Shown here in pieces: positions 15,766 to 25,801 of a stretch of 64,000 nt of DNA (within the stretch, counting starts at the first letter, position 1; the number at the start of each line of letters is the position of its first letter). A program made the position numbers and the translations under genes. The DNA comes from Chloroflexota bacterium (GTDB taxonomy: Bacteria; Chloroflexota; UBA6077; CF-72): positions 1 through 64,000 of the forward strand of contig JAFAZN010000363.1 of the NCBI GenBank assembly GCA_019239775.1. Direction: 5' to 3'. A model generated the notes under the pieces. It saw only the letters and a program-made list of their open reading frames with translations, had not been told where the DNA came from and did not search any database.

Positions 15766-16709
15766 TGGTGGTCACGGGCGTGGTTCTGATGACCTACGGG
15801 TCGCCACGTAGTCTCGACGACGTGGGCGCGTACATCACGCGCGTCCGTGGCGGCCGCGAGCCAGATGCCGCGCTGCTGGCCGAGTTCCGCCGCCGCTACG
15901 AAGTCATCGGCATGTCGCCGTTGGTCGACGTCACGCAGGCCCAGGCGGCCGCGCTCGGCCAAGTGCTTGGCCGCGACTACCGAGTTGCGGCAGGCATGCG
16001 CTTCAGCGAACCGTCCGTTGCGGACGCCGTCTCAGAACTGCGATCCGAGGGTGCACAACGTCTGCTGGGCGTGATCCTGTCGCCGCAGTATTCCGACACA
16101 CTCATGGGTGGCTACCTGCAGGCTCTCGAAGCCGCTGCCGATGGCGTGGCCGTTCGGACGGTTCGCGCCTGGCACCTCAATCCCGCGTTCGTGGACGTGC
16201 TGGCCAGCCGCATTCGTGGCGCCCTCGCGGCCTTCGACGACGACTCTCGATACTCGACTCCTGTCCTGTTGACGGCGCATTCGCTGCCCAGGCGCGTCGT
16301 GGATCGCGAACCGGAGTATGTCGAGCAGCTGCGTGAGACGGCTGAAGCAATTGCCACGGCCGCGGAGCTGCCAGACGAGCAGTGGTCCTTCGTGTACCAG
16401 AGCGCTGGGCACACGCCAGAAGAGTGGCTCAAACCCGACCTACTCGAAGTCTTGCCGCAGTTGGCCGGCAGGGGCGTTCGCCAGGTCGTCGTGGCGCCCG
16501 TGCAGTTCCTGGCTGACCACCTCGAAACCCTGTACGACGTCGACGTCGCAGGACGCGAGCAAGCCTCGCAGGCCGGCATCGACAGGTTCGTGCGGGTGGA
16601 GGCGCCGAACGCTGCGCCGGACTTCATCGAGGCGCTGGCAAGCGTCGTCCGCGGCGAACTCGCCGCATGGGACAGTAGCCCAGCGCGAGTGGCATGGCTG
16701 CGCGCGTGA
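15765..16709 (+). CDS. hemH: Ferrochelatase (likely coproporphyrin ferrochelatase)
   Basis: GTG start (TAGTG overlap with hemE stop); GVVLMTYGSPRSLDDV..VLLTAHSLPRRV..VYQSAGHTPEEWLKPD..VAPVQFLADHLETLYDVD. Confidence 0.95.
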   Translation: MVVTGVVLMTYGSPRSLDDVGAYITRVRGGREPDAALLAEFRRRYEVIGMSPLVDVTQAQAAALGQVLGRDYRVAAGMRFSEPSVADAVSELRSEGAQRLLGVILSPQYSDTLMGGYLQALEAAADGVAVRTVRAWHLNPAFVDVLASRIRGALAAFDDDSRYSTPVLLTAHSLPRRVVDREPEYVEQLRETAEAIATAAELPDEQWSFVYQSAGHTPEEWLKPDLLEVLPQLAGRGVRQVVVAPVQFLADHLETLYDVDVAGREQASQAGIDRFVRVEAPNAAPDFIEALASVVRGELAAWDSSPARVAWLRA

Positions 16710-17608
16710 TCCGCATGGGAACGCGGCCAAGCCCGCTAGCCCGCGCGCAGGCAGAGCAGGTCGCGGCCCTGTTGCGCGAGCGTGTCGAGGTCGAGATCGT
16801 CCCCATTGCGACCAGCGGTGACCACAGTCAGGGCAAGAACGAGACAGGTCCTGACTGGGGCGCGGGGGTGTTCGTCAAAGAGCTCGAGGCGGCGCTCCTG
16901 CGCGAAGAAGTAGACCTCGCAGTGCACAGTCTGAAGGACGTCCCCCCGTTGATCACACCGGGTCTCGTGCTGGCGGCCATTCCAGTGCGCGGGGACCCCG
17001 CCGACGTGCTCGTCACCTCGGATGGGCGTGGACTGGAGGCGCTGGCCGCTGGCGCACGAGTCGGCACCAGTAGCGCGCGGCGCTCGGCGTTTCTCCGCGC
17101 CGCGCGGCCTGATGTGCACTTCGTGCCGATACGCGGTAACGTCGAGACGCGGCTGCGCAAGTTGGCAGACGGCGACTACGACGCGATCGTTCTCGCTCAG
17201 GCTGGCCTGCAACGTCTCGACCTGGAGGTCGCCTGCGTTGAGCTCGATCCGGAGCTCTTGCCGCCCGCGCCCGGACAGGGCGCGCTCACGCTGGAGTGCC
17301 GCGCCGGCGATCGCGACACGATCGCGCTGGTAGAGCCGCTGCACGATCCAGCGACAGCCGCCGCGGTGCGTGCCGAACGTCACCTCATGGCAAATCTCGA
17401 TGGCGGCTGCCGCCTTCCGGTCGGCGCCCTGGGCCGCCCACGGGCTGACGGCGGGCTGCACCTCCTGGGCGGGCTCGCGCGCGACGACGGCACCCTCAGC
17501 GTCGCCGACGCGCTCGGGCGGCTCGACGCACCTGAAGCCCTGGCAGACCAGCTCACCGAACGTCTGCGCATGCCGGGCGCCCCGCAACGACGAGTGATGT
17601 ACGCATGA
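16694..17608 (+). CDS. hemC: Hydroxymethylbilane synthase
   Basis: IRMGTRPSPLARAQAEQV..VDLAVHSLKDVP..RRSAFLRAARPDVHFVPIRGNVETRLRKL..APGQGALTLECR. Confidence 0.97.
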   Translation: MAARVIRMGTRPSPLARAQAEQVAALLRERVEVEIVPIATSGDHSQGKNETGPDWGAGVFVKELEAALLREEVDLAVHSLKDVPPLITPGLVLAAIPVRGDPADVLVTSDGRGLEALAAGARVGTSSARRSAFLRAARPDVHFVPIRGNVETRLRKLADGDYDAIVLAQAGLQRLDLEVACVELDPELLPPAPGQGALTLECRAGDRDTIALVEPLHDPATAAAVRAERHLMANLDGGCRLPVGALGRPRADGGLHLLGGLARDDGTLSVADALGRLDAPEALADQLTERLRMPGAPQRRVMYA

Positions 17609-18306
17609 CGCCGCTGCGCGTGCTGAACACGCGACCGCGCGAGCAAGCAGCAGAGCTGTCCGCATTGCTGCGCGTTGCTGGATTCGAAGCGGTCGAGGCA
17701 TCCGCGATTGCCATCGAACGCGCCTGGTCAGCACACGATTTCGAAGCCACGTTGAGCGCTCTGGCCTCAGGCAGTTATGCGTGCGTGGTCCTGCAGAGTG
17801 CGAACGCCGCGTGTGGACTCGAGGAGCACCTCCCTAATGCGAGTGTGGTATGCGGCGCCTCGACCGCCCGTGCACTCGACCTGGACGCTGCCGTCACACT
17901 CGAGCGCTTCAGCGCAGCTGCTGCCCTCGAGGCCATGACGCCAGTCCTGCGTGCGGGCGACCGCGTACTGGTCCCGCGCGCAGCCGAAGGCCGTGATGAG
18001 CTCGTCGATGGCCTCCGAGCCCTCGGTGTGGAGGTGGATGCGCCCGTGGCATACCGCACCGTCGCCACTGTGGACGCAGCATCGCAATTGCGCCTTGGCG
18101 GCATCGACGTTGTGACGCTGTGCAGCCCATCTGCCGTTGCGCCGATCGCGGCCGCGGTACCACGCGAAGCGTTGGTGGTGTGTATCGGGGCCACGACCGC
18201 CGACGCCGCGCGAGCGCATGGTGTGCGCGTGGATGCCGTCGCCGACCAAACCAGCATGCGCAGCCTGGTCCATGCGATCGAACGACTGGCGGGCGCGCGC
18301 GTATGA
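17605..18306 (+). CDS. hemD: Uroporphyrinogen-III synthase
   Basis: 233 aa; RVLNTRPREQAAELSALLRVAGFEAVEASAIAIE..VTLCSPSAVAPIAAAV..VCIGATTADAARAHGV; between hemC and hemA. Confidence 0.9.
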   Translation: MTPLRVLNTRPREQAAELSALLRVAGFEAVEASAIAIERAWSAHDFEATLSALASGSYACVVLQSANAACGLEEHLPNASVVCGASTARALDLDAAVTLERFSAAAALEAMTPVLRAGDRVLVPRAAEGRDELVDGLRALGVEVDAPVAYRTVATVDAASQLRLGGIDVVTLCSPSAVAPIAAAVPREALVVCIGATTADAARAHGVRVDAVADQTSMRSLVHAIERLAGARV

Positions 18307-19565
18307 GCGGGCGGCTGCTGGTCTTCGGCGTGAGTCATCACGCTGCGCCGCTGGAAGTGCGCGAGCGGCTCGCCATCGACGAGAGCATGTGGCGGGCTCA
18401 CGCGCCGAGGCAGCCTGCGACCGTTCTCCTTTCCACCTGTAACCGCGTTGAGGTCTATGCCTGGATCGAAGGCCGCACCCAGTCGGCTCGTCGAACCCTG
18501 CTGCGCGCGTTGAGCCGCGCCACCGACGTGGACAGCACCGAACTCGAACAGTACGGTGTGTCGCGCTCGGGTCGTGAGGCGTTGCTGCACCTGGTGCGCG
18601 TGGCTTCGGGTCTTGACTCAATGCTCGTTGGCGAAGAGCAGATCCGTGGCCAGGTCCGCGAAGCGTTGCGGCTGGCCGAGGAGTCGGAGGACCTGCCGAC
18701 CTCGTTACGCGGCGTCTTTCAGCGTGCGATCGAGTCGGCACGCCGCGTGCGCGGCTCGACTCGGCTTGGTAAGGCGCCATCGATCGCCGCGGCTGGCGTT
18801 GGCGTGGCGCGTCGCGCCCTGCCGACTGATGTCAGCGGCCAGTTAGCAGTGGTGCTGGGTGCCGGCGTAATGGCGCGCGCGGCTGCCGAGGCGCTCCTCG
18901 CCGCGGGCGCGCACGTACGCGTGCTGAACCGAACGGCGGAACACGCCATGCGCGTGATGCACCAGTTGCGTGGAGCGATCGAGATCGGCACTCTCGACGC
19001 CCTCCCCGAGGTGCTCGCCTCGGCGGCGCTTGTAGTTGGGGCGACCGCGGCCCGCTCCACCCTGGTGGACTACGCAGCCGTGGCTGCCGTGGTGCGGTCG
19101 CGCTGTGCGCCGCTCGTGCTCCTGGACATTGCCTTGCCGCGTGACGTCGACCCGAGAGTGCGCGAGCTCGGTGGTGTGTCGCTGATCGACCTGGATGATC
19201 TCGAACGCCTGTGTCCGGTTGATGCGCAGACCCGCTCAGTGGAGCGCGAGCGGGCTGAAGAGCTGGCGTGCCAGGAGGCGCAGCGCCTGGCCGATTGGCT
19301 GCGCACACGGGCGCAAGCGCCCGCGATCGCTGAGCTCCGTACGTATGCGGAGGCTGTTCGCCTGAGCGAGCTGCGGCGATCCGCGACGCGCCTGCGCGAC
19401 CTTACGCCGGAGCAGATTGCCGCGGTCGAAGCTCTAACCACCAGCATCGTCAACAAGCTGATGCACGGCCCAACCGTGGCGCTGCGCGATGCCAGCGTCG
19501 AGCGCTCGCGCGCGCACATTCTGCGGGTGTTGCGCCCGCGCACCTCACGTGGAAGGAGCGCTTGA
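18303..19565 (+). CDS. hemA: Glutamyl-tRNA reductase
   Basis: MSGRLLVFGVSHHAAPLEVRERLAI..LLSTCNRVEVYAW..VASGLDSMLVGEEQIRGQVREA; ATG 18303 overlaps hemD stop. Confidence 0.96.
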   Translation: MSGRLLVFGVSHHAAPLEVRERLAIDESMWRAHAPRQPATVLLSTCNRVEVYAWIEGRTQSARRTLLRALSRATDVDSTELEQYGVSRSGREALLHLVRVASGLDSMLVGEEQIRGQVREALRLAEESEDLPTSLRGVFQRAIESARRVRGSTRLGKAPSIAAAGVGVARRALPTDVSGQLAVVLGAGVMARAAAEALLAAGAHVRVLNRTAEHAMRVMHQLRGAIEIGTLDALPEVLASAALVVGATAARSTLVDYAAVAAVVRSRCAPLVLLDIALPRDVDPRVRELGGVSLIDLDDLERLCPVDAQTRSVERERAEELACQEAQRLADWLRTRAQAPAIAELRTYAEAVRLSELRRSATRLRDLTPEQIAAVEALTTSIVNKLMHGPTVALRDASVERSRAHILRVLRPRTSRGRSA

Positions 19566-19571
19566 CGAATC

Positions 19572-20639
19572 GTGGAACACACGACGCGTGCCCAGTTCCC
19601 ACAGGCGCGACCGCGTCGACTGCGCCGTACCGAAAACCTTCGACGCATGGTGCGCGAGACGCATCTCCGCACGGACGGGTTCATCTACCCGGTCTTTGTC
19701 GTGCCTGGCACCGACGTGCACGAAGAGATCACCTCGATGCCTGGCGTGTACCACCAGTCAATCGACCGTGTAGTCGAGGATGCGCGCGAGGTTGCTGACC
19801 TCGGAATACCGGCGATGCTGCTGTTCGGCCTGCCGCCGTTCAAGGACGCCGAGGCTTCCCAGGCGATGGCTGTCGATGGCATCGTGCAGCAGGCTTTACG
19901 CGCCATCAAGCGTGCCGCACCGTCGCTGGTACTGATTGCCGATACCTGTTTGTGCGAGTACACGAGCCATGGTCACTGCGGCGTGCTCGGCGCGGCGGGT
20001 CAAGAGGGCTTCATCGACAACGATCTCTCGCTCGAGCTGATGAGCCGCACGGCGGTGTCGCAGGCCGAAGCTGGCGCCGATATCGTGGCGCCCTCCGACA
20101 TGCTGGATGGTCGAGTTGGCGCCATTCGCGCCGCGCTGGATGCGCGCGGCCTGCACGACACCCTCATCATGTCGTACGCGGCCAAGTACGCCAGCGCGTT
20201 TTACGGTCCGTTCCGCGACGCAGCCGACTCAGCGCCGCAGTTTGGCGATCGCCGCGGCTATCAGATGGATCCGCCCAACGGCCGCGAGGCCGTGCGCGAG
20301 GTTGGCTACGACCTGGCCGAAGGTGCAGACATCGTGATGGTCAAACCAGCACTGCCATACCTCGACGTGGTGCACGCCGTGAAAACGGCGTACCCGGATG
20401 TGCCGCTGGCGGCCTACAACGTTAGCGGCGAGTACTCGATGCTCAAGGCAGCCGTTGCGAATGGCTGGCTGGATGAGCGGCGCGCCGTGATGGAAGCGCT
20501 TACCGGAATTGTGCGCGCTGGCGCGGACATGATCATCACGTATTACGCCAAGGACGTGGCCCGCTGGCTGCGCGACGACGACACGTCACACACCGCCACA
20601 TCGAACGGCGCCTTTCGCGTCGGGCCATCTCACGCGTGA
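19572..20639 (+). CDS. hemB: Porphobilinogen synthase
   Basis: [61 protein letters not shown] start. Confidence 0.97.
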
Positions 20640-21976
20640 GCGTGCCGCGTGAGGGACTCGCCGCACGAACACAGAGGTCCGAGGCGCTCTTCGCCGAGGC
20701 GCAAAAGCACCTGCCGGGTGGCGTCGACTCCCCGGTAAGGGCTTTCCGCGGCGTGGGCGGCACGCCGCGCTTCATCGCCCGCGCCAAAGGCTCAGCGGTC
20801 TGGGATGAAGACGGCAATCATTATGTCGACTACCTGGCTTCGTGGGGCCCGCTGATCGCGGGCCATGCCCACCCGGGCGTGGTGGCCGCCATTCAGGAGG
20901 CCGCCACCCGCGGCACAAGCTATGGCGCGCCCACCCAGGCCGAGGTCGAGCTGGCGCAACTGGTCAAGCAAGCATTTCCGAGCATCGAGCTCGTACGGTT
21001 CGTCAGCTCGGGCACCGAAGCGACGATGACCGCACTGCGCCTGGCGCGCGCGTTTACCGGGCGCGACCTCATCCTCAAGTTTGACGGGGGCTATCACGGC
21101 CATGCCGATGGCCTGCTGGTACAGGCTGGCTCAGGGCCGCTGACATTGGGTGCGCCTGATTCGCCGGGTGTGCCCGCGGTGGCCGCGGCTCAAACGCTGT
21201 CGGTGCCCTACAACGACGTGGTTGCGGCGCGCGATGCATTGGCCGCGCACCCGCGACAAGTCGCGGCGGTGATCGTCGAGCCGGTGGCGGGCAACATGGG
21301 GGTGATCCCGCCTGCGCCCGGGTTCCTCGAACACCTGCGCGAGCTCACGCGGGCGGATGGCGCGCTGTTGATCTTCGACGAGGTCATCACCGGCTTCCGC
21401 GTCGCGCTGGGCGGCGCGCAAGAACGTTTTCGCATCCGGCCCGATCTGACGTGCCTCGGCAAAATCGTTGGTGGCGGCTTGCCCGTAGGTGCCTACGGCG
21501 GACGCGCCGACATCATGCAGCAGATCTCGCCGCTCGGGCCCGTGTACCAGGCAGGCACTCTCTCAGGCAACCCGCTCGCCATGGCAGCAGGCCTTGCCAC
21601 ACTACGACTGCTGACAGAGCCTGGCGTCTACGACCATCTCGAACGGCTCAGCGCTCGCCTGACGGATGGACTCGGCAACGCCGCGCTCAGTGCTGGAGTC
21701 GCATACACCACCAATCGTGTGGGCTCGATGTTCACGGGCTTCTTCTGCCCCGAACCTGTCACTGACTACGCTTCGGCCAAAGCGGCCGATACCCGAAGAT
21801 ATGCGCGCTTCTTCCACGCGATGCTGGAGCACGGCGTCTACCTGGCGCCCTCGCAGTTCGAAGCGGGGTTCGTGTCGCTGGCGCACACCGAGGCCGATAT
21901 CGATGCCACACTCGCCGCTGCCGCTGAGGCCTTTGGCGAAGTTACGAGTCGCGAGTCCCGCGTCGCGGGCGAGTAG
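20636..21976 (+). CDS. hemL: Glutamate-1-semialdehyde 2,1-aminomutase
   Basis: [88 protein letters not shown]. Confidence 0.97.
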
Positions 21977-22047
21977 CTTCCGTCGTGCTGCAAAGAAAAG
22001 TTCGCCACCGTTCGACGGAGTCCGGTTAAACTCGTGACTCGAGAAAC

Positions 22048-22545
22048 GTGACTACAGAAGCCCCTGTAACGGTCTACACGACCCCCACTTGACCCTGGTG
22101 CTCGCGAGCGAAGGAGTTCCTTCGCAAAGAGGGCGTTCCGTTCGAGGTACGCGATGTGTCGGTCGACGCCGATGCGGCGCGCGATATGGTGCAGCGCACT
22201 CGCCAGATGGGCGTGCCGGTCATTGCCGATGAGCAGGAAGCCATCGTTGGCTTCGACATGCCAAGGCTACAGCGCATGGCCGCGCGGCATCGACGCGGCG
22301 GTGGTCTTGGGCTGAAAGTCACCGATTTCAAGGACGGGCCTGGCGCGTATGTTGGCGGCGTGCGCGAGGACTCGCCTGGTGCGCGCGCGGGCGTCGAAGT
22401 TGGCGACGTGATCCTGGAGCTTTCAGGTCGAGCCGTCTCGGGCGTCGCGGATCTGGAGCAGATCGCGGCAAGACGGCCGCCAGGCCAGCCCACGAGCATG
22501 ACCGTCCAGCGCAACGGCGAGACGCGCACGCTGATTCTGCGCTAG
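22048..22545 (+). CDS. Candidate selenocysteine-containing glutaredoxin-PDZ fusion (in-frame TGA at 22090-22092)
   Basis: GTG 22048; frame reads VTTEAPVTVYTTPT[TGA]PWCSRAKEFLRKEGVPFEVRDVSVDADAARDMVQRTRQMGVPVIADEQEAIVGFDMPRLQRM then PDZ GAYVGGVREDSPGARAGVEVGDVILELSGRAV. TGA occupies the first Cys of CPWC. ORF track lists only the 3' part (22156..22545). Confidence 0.72.
22093..22133 (+). promoter_or_regulatory. Putative bacterial SECIS element
   Basis: GCGAAGG-AGTT-CCTTCGC (22108-22125), perfect 7-bp stem with tetraloop; loop starts 22 nt after TGA and has G at loop position 2; optional lower stem CCCT/AGGG (22093-22096 / 22130-22133). Confidence 0.55.
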
Positions 22546-22838
22546 CCCGCCCCGCGCCGCGCACCACGGTTCGTGCTCGACCGTGTAGTGCGCGGTAGCT
22601 TCGCCTGCACCGGCTGCGCTTCGCGCGCCCACGGACCTTCGGAGAGTTTGAGACCGTTGTGGGCCACCACCATGGGGCGTGGACGTGTCGAGGGCTTCGA
22701 CCCTGTCGGTGTTGCCACCAGGGCGCGAATGCTGGTCCCCAACGGTTCACCCGCGGGCGAGCCGCGCCGGCGAGGTGAAGGTAAAGAGCGCGACTCGCAT
22801 GTCGGTACAAATCTCGCCGGGAGGCGAAAAGTTGGCTC

Positions 22839-22867
22839 TTGCACAACCTTTCGTGCAGGTGTATATT
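22839..22867 (+). promoter_or_regulatory. Sigma70-like promoter with overlapping inverted repeat
   Basis: TTGCAC - 17 nt - TATATT; TGCAC-N8-GTGCA inverted repeat at 22840-22857 upstream of the marR-like start at 22905. Confidence 0.6.
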
Positions 22868-22904
22868 TCGCTTCAACCAAACTATTTACGCTGCCCGAAG
22901 GACC

Positions 22905-23378
22905 ATGGACGAAGAACGCATCCAACGCATACATCGCATCCTCTCCTGCTCCGAGGCGCTCGTGCATGGCTTCAATCCCAGTCGCGATCGCGCCTGGCTG
23001 CGGCTGGATCTCACCATGCCGCAGCTCAAAGCACTGATTTACGTCACCAAGAACCAGAACTCGACGAGCGGCCAGATCGCCGCGAGCCTGGGTGTTGGCC
23101 TCTCCACCATTACCGGCATCGTTGATCGGCTGGCCGAACAAAGCCTGGTCACTCGCCGCGAGGATCCGCGCGATCGACGCGTCACGCGCGTGCTGCCGAC
23201 TCCGACTGGCGCCGAGCTGGTCGACGAGCTGATCCAGTACCGCAACGAGGTGGTGACCGCGATCCTGTCGCAGCTCGACCCCGACCAACTGCAAGTGGTG
23301 GAGTCCGCCTTTCAGTATCTCCTCGACGCCGCCGCCAAGCTCGACCGCGAGCGCAATCACGCAGGAGCCGTGGCATGA
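22905..23378 (+). CDS. MarR family transcriptional regulator
   Basis: LTMPQLKALIYVTKNQNSTSGQIAASLGVGLSTITGIVDRLAEQSLVTRREDPRDRRVTRVLPTPTG winged-helix pattern. Confidence 0.93.
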   Translation: MDEERIQRIHRILSCSEALVHGFNPSRDRAWLRLDLTMPQLKALIYVTKNQNSTSGQIAASLGVGLSTITGIVDRLAEQSLVTRREDPRDRRVTRVLPTPTGAELVDELIQYRNEVVTAILSQLDPDQLQVVESAFQYLLDAAAKLDRERNHAGAVA

Positions 23379-25801
23379 CTCATCTCAAACTCATCGGTGC
23401 AACCACAGCTGTGCTCATTTTCGTAGCTGGCTGCGGCCCTATCGCCGTGCCCGGCAGCTCCAGTGGGTCGCAGGCGCAGGCCATCAGCGTGCCGGCCGCG
23501 ACGGCGCAGCATGGGGACATTCAGCAAACCCTGACCTATAGCGGTGACGTCCGCGCCAAGGACCAGATCACCGTGTTGCCGAAGGCATCGGGTCGCGTAC
23601 AACAGGTGCTCGTCGACATCGGCTCTTCCGTGCACGCGGGCGACGTGGTAGCGGAGCTGGAGCAAGACTCGCCCGAAATCGCCGTCCTGCAGGCACGCGC
23701 CAATCTGGCCGCGGCGCAGGCAAAGTTGGCAACCATCCAGGCTGGCGCCAAGCCAGACGACGTGGCCGCCGCACAAGAGGCCGTGGCGCAACAGCAGGCG
23801 CGCCTCGACTCAATGTTGGCCGGTGGGCGCCAGGAAGACGTTGCCGCCGCCCAGGCCGCCGTGGCCGCGCAATCCGCCAAGCTGAACTTAATGCTCAGCG
23901 GTGGTCGCGCCGAAACGGTCGCGCAGGCTCAAGCGGCCGTCGACGCGGCACAGCAGAAGCTCGCGTTGCTTCAAAAAGGTGCGACTGACGATGTGCGCCA
24001 GGCAGCCGCCAGCGCGGTGAGTGCCGACATGGCCCAGGTCACCGCGACGGAAGCCTCGTATGCCGCGTTGGGCGGTACCTCAGCAGCAGACCTGGAGCAA
24101 CTACAAGCCCAGGTTGATGCGCTCCAGGCCCAGGTGAACGCCGGGCAAACGGCGGTGAGCTCAGCCGATGCGGCTCTCCAAAACCAGGTCGGCTCCAGTG
24201 CGGCTGACGTGCAGGCGGCGCAAACAGCGTACGACCAGGCCCAGGCGCAGCTCACGGCTGCTCAGGCGGCGTTGAACCAGGCTCAGAATCCGACGCAACT
24301 CTCAATCGCCCAGGCGCAAGCAGCCCTCACGGCTGCGCAAGCGCAGGAGGCCGGCGCCGAATCGAACCAGACGGCGCTGGAGCAGAAGGCCGCGGGTTTG
24401 TGCGCGCCCTTGATCAGTCCAATCACCGGTCAGGCGTACCAGCAGCCGAACAGTACCGCGTGCGGTGTGGCCAAGAGTGCGGCTGATGAAGCGGTGCAGG
24501 CTGGCAATGCCGCAATCGACGCCGCCCAGGGCCAGCTCGACCAGCTTCGCCGCGGCGGTGCCCCGGCCACGCTGGCGGCAACCCAGGCGCAGGCCACCAG
24601 CGCTCAGGCACTGGTCAAAGCCACCAAGGCGCGGCTCGATGCGCTCACCAACGGTGGTGTGCAGGCACAGCGTGCGCAGCTTCAGGCCGCGCACGATCAG
24701 GCCGTCAGCCAACTCACCCAGGCACAGGACAATTTGAGTGTCGCGCAGGCACGCGTGCAGGCCGCGCAAAACGGCACGCTCGATGCTCAGCGCAAAGCCG
24801 CGCAGGCACAGGTCGACGCCTCCCGTGAGAAGTTGAAGGCGGACCAGGCGCACCTGGACCAGATCTCAGCCGGCCCCCAGGACGAGGACGTGCAGGCGGC
24901 CCAGGACGCGGTCACCCAGGCGCAGCAACAGCTGGCGCTCGCAACACAACCTGCCACGACGCAGGACATCGAGGCGCAGCGCGCTCTCGTCAACCAGGCA
25001 CAGGAGCAGCTGCAGAAGGCGCAGCAGCCCTACACCGACTACGACATCCAGCAGCAACAACACATGGTCGCGCAGGCTGAAGCGCAGCTGCGCGGCCGCC
25101 AGAATCCGTATACCGACCAGGACGTTCAAGCGGCGCAGGCCGGTGTCGATCAGGCGCAGGCTGCGCTCGAGCTTGCACAGCTGGGCGTGCGCGAGACGCA
25201 GGTCGTCGCACCAGTAGACGGCATCGTGTTCGATCGGCAGGTTTCGCCGGGCGCACTCGTTGGACCGACCTCGCCGATCATCACCTTGATCCCACCAGCC
25301 CTCGAAGTCGCAATCAACGTCGACGAGGCGCAGCTGGGCAACGTGACGCAGGGGCAGCAGGTGTCGCTGCAGGTACCGGCCTATCCGGATCAGACCTTCA
25401 ACGGCACCGTCACGGCGGTTGCCCCCGGCATCGATCAGAAAACGCGCACCGCAAGCGTGCGCATCCAACCGCAAGACGATGCGGGTAAGCTGAAGCCGGG
25501 CATGCTGGCCCAGGTCAACATCATCACCGCGACGCGCAGTGATGTGCTGCTGGTGCCGCGTGAAGCAATCGTCGGCACGCCCAGCACCAACGCACCGGCC
25601 ACACTGGTCACGCTGGATGGTGGGCATGCCGCGCGAGTAACAGTTCAGCTCGGGCTGATTGGCGACCGAACGGTCCAGGTCAGCAGCGGTCTGAATGACG
25701 GCCAGGTGGTGGCCGTTGGCAATGCAAACGGGTTGAACACAGGTGACGCGGTCGTCCCGCAGCTGCGGCCGACGCTCGCCTCGACGGTGGGAGTCCAGTA
25801 A
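23375..25801 (+). CDS. HlyD/RND-type efflux adaptor lipoprotein with very long coiled-coil hairpin
   Basis: Lipobox LIFVAGCG; lipoyl halves LPKASGRVQQVLVDIGSSVHAGDVVAELE and VVAPVDGIVFDRQVSPGALVGPTSPIITLI; about 500 aa Ala/Gln-rich heptad region between. Confidence 0.9.
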   Translation: MTHLKLIGATTAVLIFVAGCGPIAVPGSSSGSQAQAISVPAATAQHGDIQQTLTYSGDVRAKDQITVLPKASGRVQQVLVDIGSSVHAGDVVAELEQDSPEIAVLQARANLAAAQAKLATIQAGAKPDDVAAAQEAVAQQQARLDSMLAGGRQEDVAAAQAAVAAQSAKLNLMLSGGRAETVAQAQAAVDAAQQKLALLQKGATDDVRQAAASAVSADMAQVTATEASYAALGGTSAADLEQLQAQVDALQAQVNAGQTAVSSADAALQNQVGSSAADVQAAQTAYDQAQAQLTAAQAALNQAQNPTQLSIAQAQAALTAAQAQEAGAESNQTALEQKAAGLCAPLISPITGQAYQQPNSTACGVAKSAADEAVQAGNAAIDAAQGQLDQLRRGGAPATLAATQAQATSAQALVKATKARLDALTNGGVQAQRAQLQAAHDQAVSQLTQAQDNLSVAQARVQAAQNGTLDAQRKAAQAQVDASREKLKADQAHLDQISAGPQDEDVQAAQDAVTQAQQQLALATQPATTQDIEAQRALVNQAQEQLQKAQQPYTDYDIQQQQHMVAQAEAQLRGRQNPYTDQDVQAAQAGVDQAQAALELAQLGVRETQVVAPVDGIVFDRQVSPGALVGPTSPIITLIPPALEVAINVDEAQLGNVTQGQQVSLQVPAYPDQTFNGTVTAVAPGIDQKTRTASVRIQPQDDAGKLKPGMLAQVNIITATRSDVLLVPREAIVGTPSTNAPATLVTLDGGHAARVTVQLGLIGDRTVQVSSGLNDGQVVAVGNANGLNTGDAVVPQLRPTLASTVGVQ

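Follow-up and report, generated by a model that had tools for sequence, protein, structure and literature searches.

A single in-frame TGA in a gene for a glutaredoxin-like protein raises the question of whether the codon ends translation or is read as selenocysteine (Sec), and what a Sec-glutaredoxin joined to a PDZ domain would do in its host. The gene lies in the window, a 64,000-nucleotide stretch of DNA from a soil Chloroflexota bacterium whose genome (7.2 Mb in 507 contigs) is about 91% complete. Its coding frame spans 22048..22545 on the forward strand, from a proposed GTG start at 22048, ahead of which no clear ribosome site was noted, to a TAG stop ending at 22545, and comprises 165 residues plus the stop. 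The first-pass annotation had placed the only TGA of this frame (22090..22092) at the first redox position of a glutaredoxin, and the sequence bears this out: translation across the codon gives VTTEAPVTVYTTPT-U-PWCSRAKEFLRK..., with the UGA as predicted Sec15, position 1 of a U-P-W-C redox motif, and the codon for the putative resolving Cys18 at 22099..22101. As had also been noted, the mechanical ORF list gives 22156-22545 alone for this gene, so ordinary gene calling loses the redox active site; because it cuts the gene at the UGA, annotations of the homologues probably err in showing nothing but a PDZ protein.

When the UGA was entered as Cys, domain searches recovered glutaredoxin similarity on either side of it and then a PDZ domain, the layout originally proposed. 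The glutaredoxin domain (residues 7-60; 22066..22227, forward strand) matched Pfam PF00462 at 61.8 bits against a cut-off of 22.9, and the DegP/DegQ-like PDZ domain (residues 85-162; 22300..22533, forward strand) matched PDZ_2 (PF13180) at 49.6 bits against a cut-off of 27, with PF00595 and PF17820 also each above the Pfam cut-off. An AlphaFold2 model of the protein has two confident domains (pLDDT 91), including a confident thioredoxin-type fold in the glutaredoxin half, and leaves their relative orientation unfixed (pTM 0.59). Matches in the PDB come per domain, to glutaredoxins and, by both profile and fold, to PDZ domains of the DegP/DegQ type. Cys18 is invariant in an alignment of 27 homologues, as is G88, part of an L-G-L segment at the expected place of the PDZ carboxylate loop. 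The protein starts only a few residues ahead of the first glutaredoxin strand, too few to accommodate a signal peptide, and is therefore probably cytosolic.

Downstream of the UGA, the mRNA contains a predicted SECIS hairpin at 22108..22125 (forward strand; GCGAAGG-AGUU-CCUUCGC), with a 7-bp stem (22108-22114 paired with 22119-22125) and an apical loop of AGUU (22115-22118). The stem, the loop and the 22-nt distance from UGA to loop stand as first described; the accompanying claim of G in the first two loop positions needs a small correction, since the loop reads A-G-U-U with G second only. The published bacterial SECIS model allows a loop of 3-9 nt, a stem of 4-16 bp and a spacing of 16-37 nt, and further asks for a G among the first two loop bases and a minimum free energy of -7.5 kcal/mol or lower (PMC13188914). 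The hairpin lies within every one of these limits (loop 4, stem 7, G second, spacing 22, -11.9 kcal/mol for the local fold). Folded alone, the 61-nt region of the window is unexceptional relative to dinucleotide shuffles (z -0.33), and the evidence for its hairpin as a bacterial SECIS element is comparative.

That evidence comes from several directions. When the hairpin was scored as present at six or more consecutive pairs a fixed distance from the UGA, 34 of 35 distinct Sec forms had it and all 76 Cys forms lacked it, a comparison in which relatives are counted as independent; the sole Sec form failing the criterion (L019) has one internal mismatch. All 25 Sec forms that were recoded synonymously fold better than the mean of their own recodings (mean z -2.5), compared with a mean z of -0.4 for Cys forms (n=5). 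Covariation among 23 sequences scored 0.263 for the stem against 0.131 for shuffled alignments, a value reached in 0 of 500 shuffles and falling to at most 0.154 when the stem was slid; one covarying pair is C-G in 10 sequences and U-A in 10, and a second is A-U, G-C or C-G. Where the residue was the same, codons beneath the hairpin, and with them the synonymous sites, matched in all 120 comparisons within the window's group, versus 41% elsewhere, and in all 120 within family f21, versus 46% elsewhere in the same genes, whereas codons in this region of the Cys forms were identical in 51% of comparisons versus 42% elsewhere. The four well-supported independent Sec/Cys pairs on the tree all agree in direction for the hairpin (p 0.125) and are by themselves too few for significance. 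In most of the more distant homologues a loop of GUU or GUG closes a longer stem, of up to 8 or 9 pairs, whose register is shifted by one base while G-U stays looped. Sec forms thus conserve the SECIS-like hairpin of the first-pass annotation through compensatory changes, and Cys forms do not have it; the accompanying doubt that its stem might simply encode ordinary glutaredoxin residues is answered by Cys homologues that have the same or similar residues (AKEFL) and lack the stem.

The homologue search covered 201 relatives and, after them, 399 genomes from the phylum, together with a scan of named genomes. The exchange of Sec and Cys that had been suggested as a check was found: of 46 distinct full-length glutaredoxin-PDZ proteins, 34 carry UGA at this codon and the remaining 12 carry TGC or TGT, leaving none of the 46 with any other residue there. 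Sec forms also occur in Thermomicrobiales. We considered whether the TGA might have arisen through faulty sequencing or assembly, or might mark a pseudogene whose Cys codon has turned into a stop, a caveat already attached to the locus because TGC becomes TGA by one base, and one to which the fragmented state of the assembly adds weight. However, UGA occupies the same codon in dozens of independently assembled genomes, single-contig ones included (family f21, genus g49, contains small single-contig genomes), which a sequencing error does not explain. The hairpin accompanies the UGA, and the codons 3' of it are under purifying selection, with a dN of 0.10 and a dS of 1.00 (dN/dS of about 0.1) relative to the same-genus homologue L018, which a pseudogene does not explain. 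On these comparisons, error and pseudogene are effectively excluded, with a probability we regard as negligible. The UGA might otherwise be a true stop, with translation restarting at GTG 22156 to give a separate PDZ protein that has no redox centre, exactly the product that mechanical ORF calling yields. Starting there would lose roughly half of the glutaredoxin domain, although conserved residues flank the UGA on both sides, the stretch from the UGA to the end of the hairpin keeps its reading frame, synonymous sites are frozen there in Sec forms only, and Cys homologues read straight through; we therefore consider it very improbable. The gene is instead, with high probability, a genuine selenoprotein gene, in which UGA 22090 would be decoded as Sec by way of the hairpin at 22108-22125.

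The host is equipped for this decoding. A search for selA, selB, selD and selC, as the first-pass annotation had advised, recovered all of them in the same genome: SelB (C101:39886-41769), the adjoining SelA (C101:41823-42887), SelD (L049; G000:C231:25653-26582) and a tRNA-Sec above the gathering score, which ARAGORN confirms with anticodon UCA. The set of genes for decoding Sec is therefore complete. The SelD gene has its own in-frame UGA (context GAG-U-ACK) with a downstream hairpin whose loop is GUG, which makes SelD itself a predicted, and expected, second selenoprotein of the host. SelB was detected in 19 of 19 tested Sec-form genomes of at least 90% completeness and was not found above the cut-off in four incomplete ones (57-88% complete). 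Because SelB is common across the phylum (109 of 149 good genomes), its presence in Sec-form genomes is supportive, not decisive.

Glutaredoxins that contain Sec are established in some bacteria, as the first reading of the locus had stated (PMC1794560, PMC1088965, PMC7642778), with examples in Clostridium oremlandii (cGrx1; PMC7642778), Geobacter sulfurreducens and Moorella thermoacetica (PMC1794560). The window's protein resembles these (PF00462, UxxC) in having Sec at the first and Cys at the second redox position and a SECIS directly downstream, but differs in its C-terminal PDZ domain, its Chloroflexota-wide family and a host in which no glutathione synthetase was detected. A Trx7/PDZ domain-containing (seleno)protein is also catalogued (NCBIfam NF041199; PMC13188914) and likewise combines a thioredoxin-fold domain and PDZ in one selenoprotein, although it has a Thioredoxin_7 domain and a CxxU motif and is longer (a 390-position model). 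Membership of NF041199, which requires 300 bits, was rejected, as the protein scored 29.8 bits in a match covering PDZ residues 99-162 only. The top NCBIfam model for the glutaredoxin half, the YruB-family glutaredoxin-like protein TIGR02196, scored 77.5 bits, under its cut-off of 88.55, and is a 74-position, glutaredoxin-only model with no PDZ and no Sec in the family name. The UXX-star (seleno)proteins are glutaredoxin-like and have Sec near the N-terminus, but their motifs are UxxT and GxGU (PMC13188914), whereas the window's protein retains the second Cys; scores also fell short of all three models (NF041212, 57.2 versus 66 bits; NF041114, 34.5 versus 72; NF041211, 31.9 versus 100). The DegP/DegQ PDZ domains share the fold, matched by sequence and structure, but here the protein has no protease domain and the PDZ follows a redox domain that is cytosolic. 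Papers on Dehalogenimonas, whose isolates reportedly have selCDAB (PMC13390414), describe selenoproteins of the SelD and formate dehydrogenase families and make no mention of glutaredoxin or PDZ. The architecture had been flagged as one with no recognised description, and we found no published account of a Sec-glutaredoxin-PDZ fusion in the open literature searched. The family is not listed in the selenoprotein catalogues examined, which count domain families rather than architectures, and both Sec-glutaredoxin and Trx7/PDZ are already known. It adds a targeting-domain architecture to the bacterial selenoproteome.

Insertion of Sec is well supported by comparative genomics, and what the protein does can be approached from its genomic surroundings. 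In the part of the window at 16694-25801, a run of tetrapyrrole genes (hemC, hemD, hemA, hemB and hemL by resemblance) ends just upstream of the gene, and MarR and HlyD genes come after it; the hemL/MarR/HlyD order is common to the window and to the same-genus locus L193. No operon partner is conserved across lineages among the neighbourhoods compared, and because the neighbourhood is not conserved between lineages we infer the donor, clients and pathway. In two distant genomes (L189 and L190; G149 and G038), rubrerythrins adjoin the Sec-glutaredoxin-PDZ gene, and the L190 neighbourhood also has a desulfoferrodoxin and a rubredoxin-reductase-like flavoprotein. These neighbours suggest an oxidative-stress role.

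The glutaredoxin-PDZ protein is the only Pfam glutaredoxin match in the host genome, where thioredoxin reductase is present and a separate glutathione synthetase was not found, in a search of the 91%-complete genome whose control worked. Because of these observations and the rubrerythrin neighbours, we prefer a reading in which the protein may act as a thioredoxin-reductase-linked selenol/thiol reductase that docks through its PDZ domain on C-terminal tails. SelB with Sec-tRNA(Sec) would recognise the hairpin and decode the UGA, giving the full-length protein with its U-P-W-C active site. Sec15 would then attack a client disulfide or oxidised thiol, Cys18 would resolve the mixed selenenylsulfide to leave a Sec15-Cys18 bond, and thioredoxin reductase or a non-glutathione thiol would reduce that bond. 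The PDZ domain may bind a client or partner by its C-terminal tail, aiming the sole detected glutaredoxin at particular proteins, and the setting is likely to be oxidative-damage repair or peroxide defence. The docking target of the PDZ domain is directly testable.

The protein might instead contain Sec and still depend on glutathione like any conventional glutaredoxin, or serve as an Fe-S carrier, and its PDZ domain would then be incidental. The C. oremlandii Sec-glutaredoxin, which is characterised, shares the U(C)PxC motif and is discussed, along with MsrA as its partner, as part of a cycle reduced by glutathione (PMC7642778), and the V-P-V and G-F segments of the glutaredoxin half, invariant across the 27 aligned sequences, are glutaredoxin-like. 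Against this stand the result for glutathione synthetase, the presence of thioredoxin reductase and the retention of the PDZ domain throughout the family. Nor does the partner of the clostridial enzyme carry over: Sec-MsrA was considered as a client and rejected, since the host's only MsrA contains no UGA and is a Cys form. We regard the conventional reading as unlikely.

Taken with the thioredoxin-reductase-linked reading, the distribution of the gene tentatively outlines a phylum-wide, uncatalogued Chloroflexota family of possibly glutathione-independent Sec-glutaredoxins, which the PDZ domain may aim at C-terminal tails of oxidative-stress clients, and which has switched repeatedly between Sec and Cys and carries a dead motif in a lineage that lacks SelB. 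On the best tree topology parsimony needs 8 Sec/Cys changes, in either direction, of which at least 4 are on well-supported branches. With at least four and probably about eight independent switches, in forms with and without a SECIS, this one family offers a natural test bed for Sec gain and loss. In three relatives from family f19 (L172, L173 and L174; G141, G077 and G069), the U-P-x-C motif has become D-P-x-C or D-P-T-S, and no f19 genome searched ranks among those with SelB above the cut-off. These dead-motif relatives may amount to a natural experiment in how Sec is lost. Elsewhere in the phylum, one genome that encodes the PDZ form (G025) also has a second Sec-glutaredoxin (L181; G025:C126) that lacks the PDZ domain and carries a similar hairpin.
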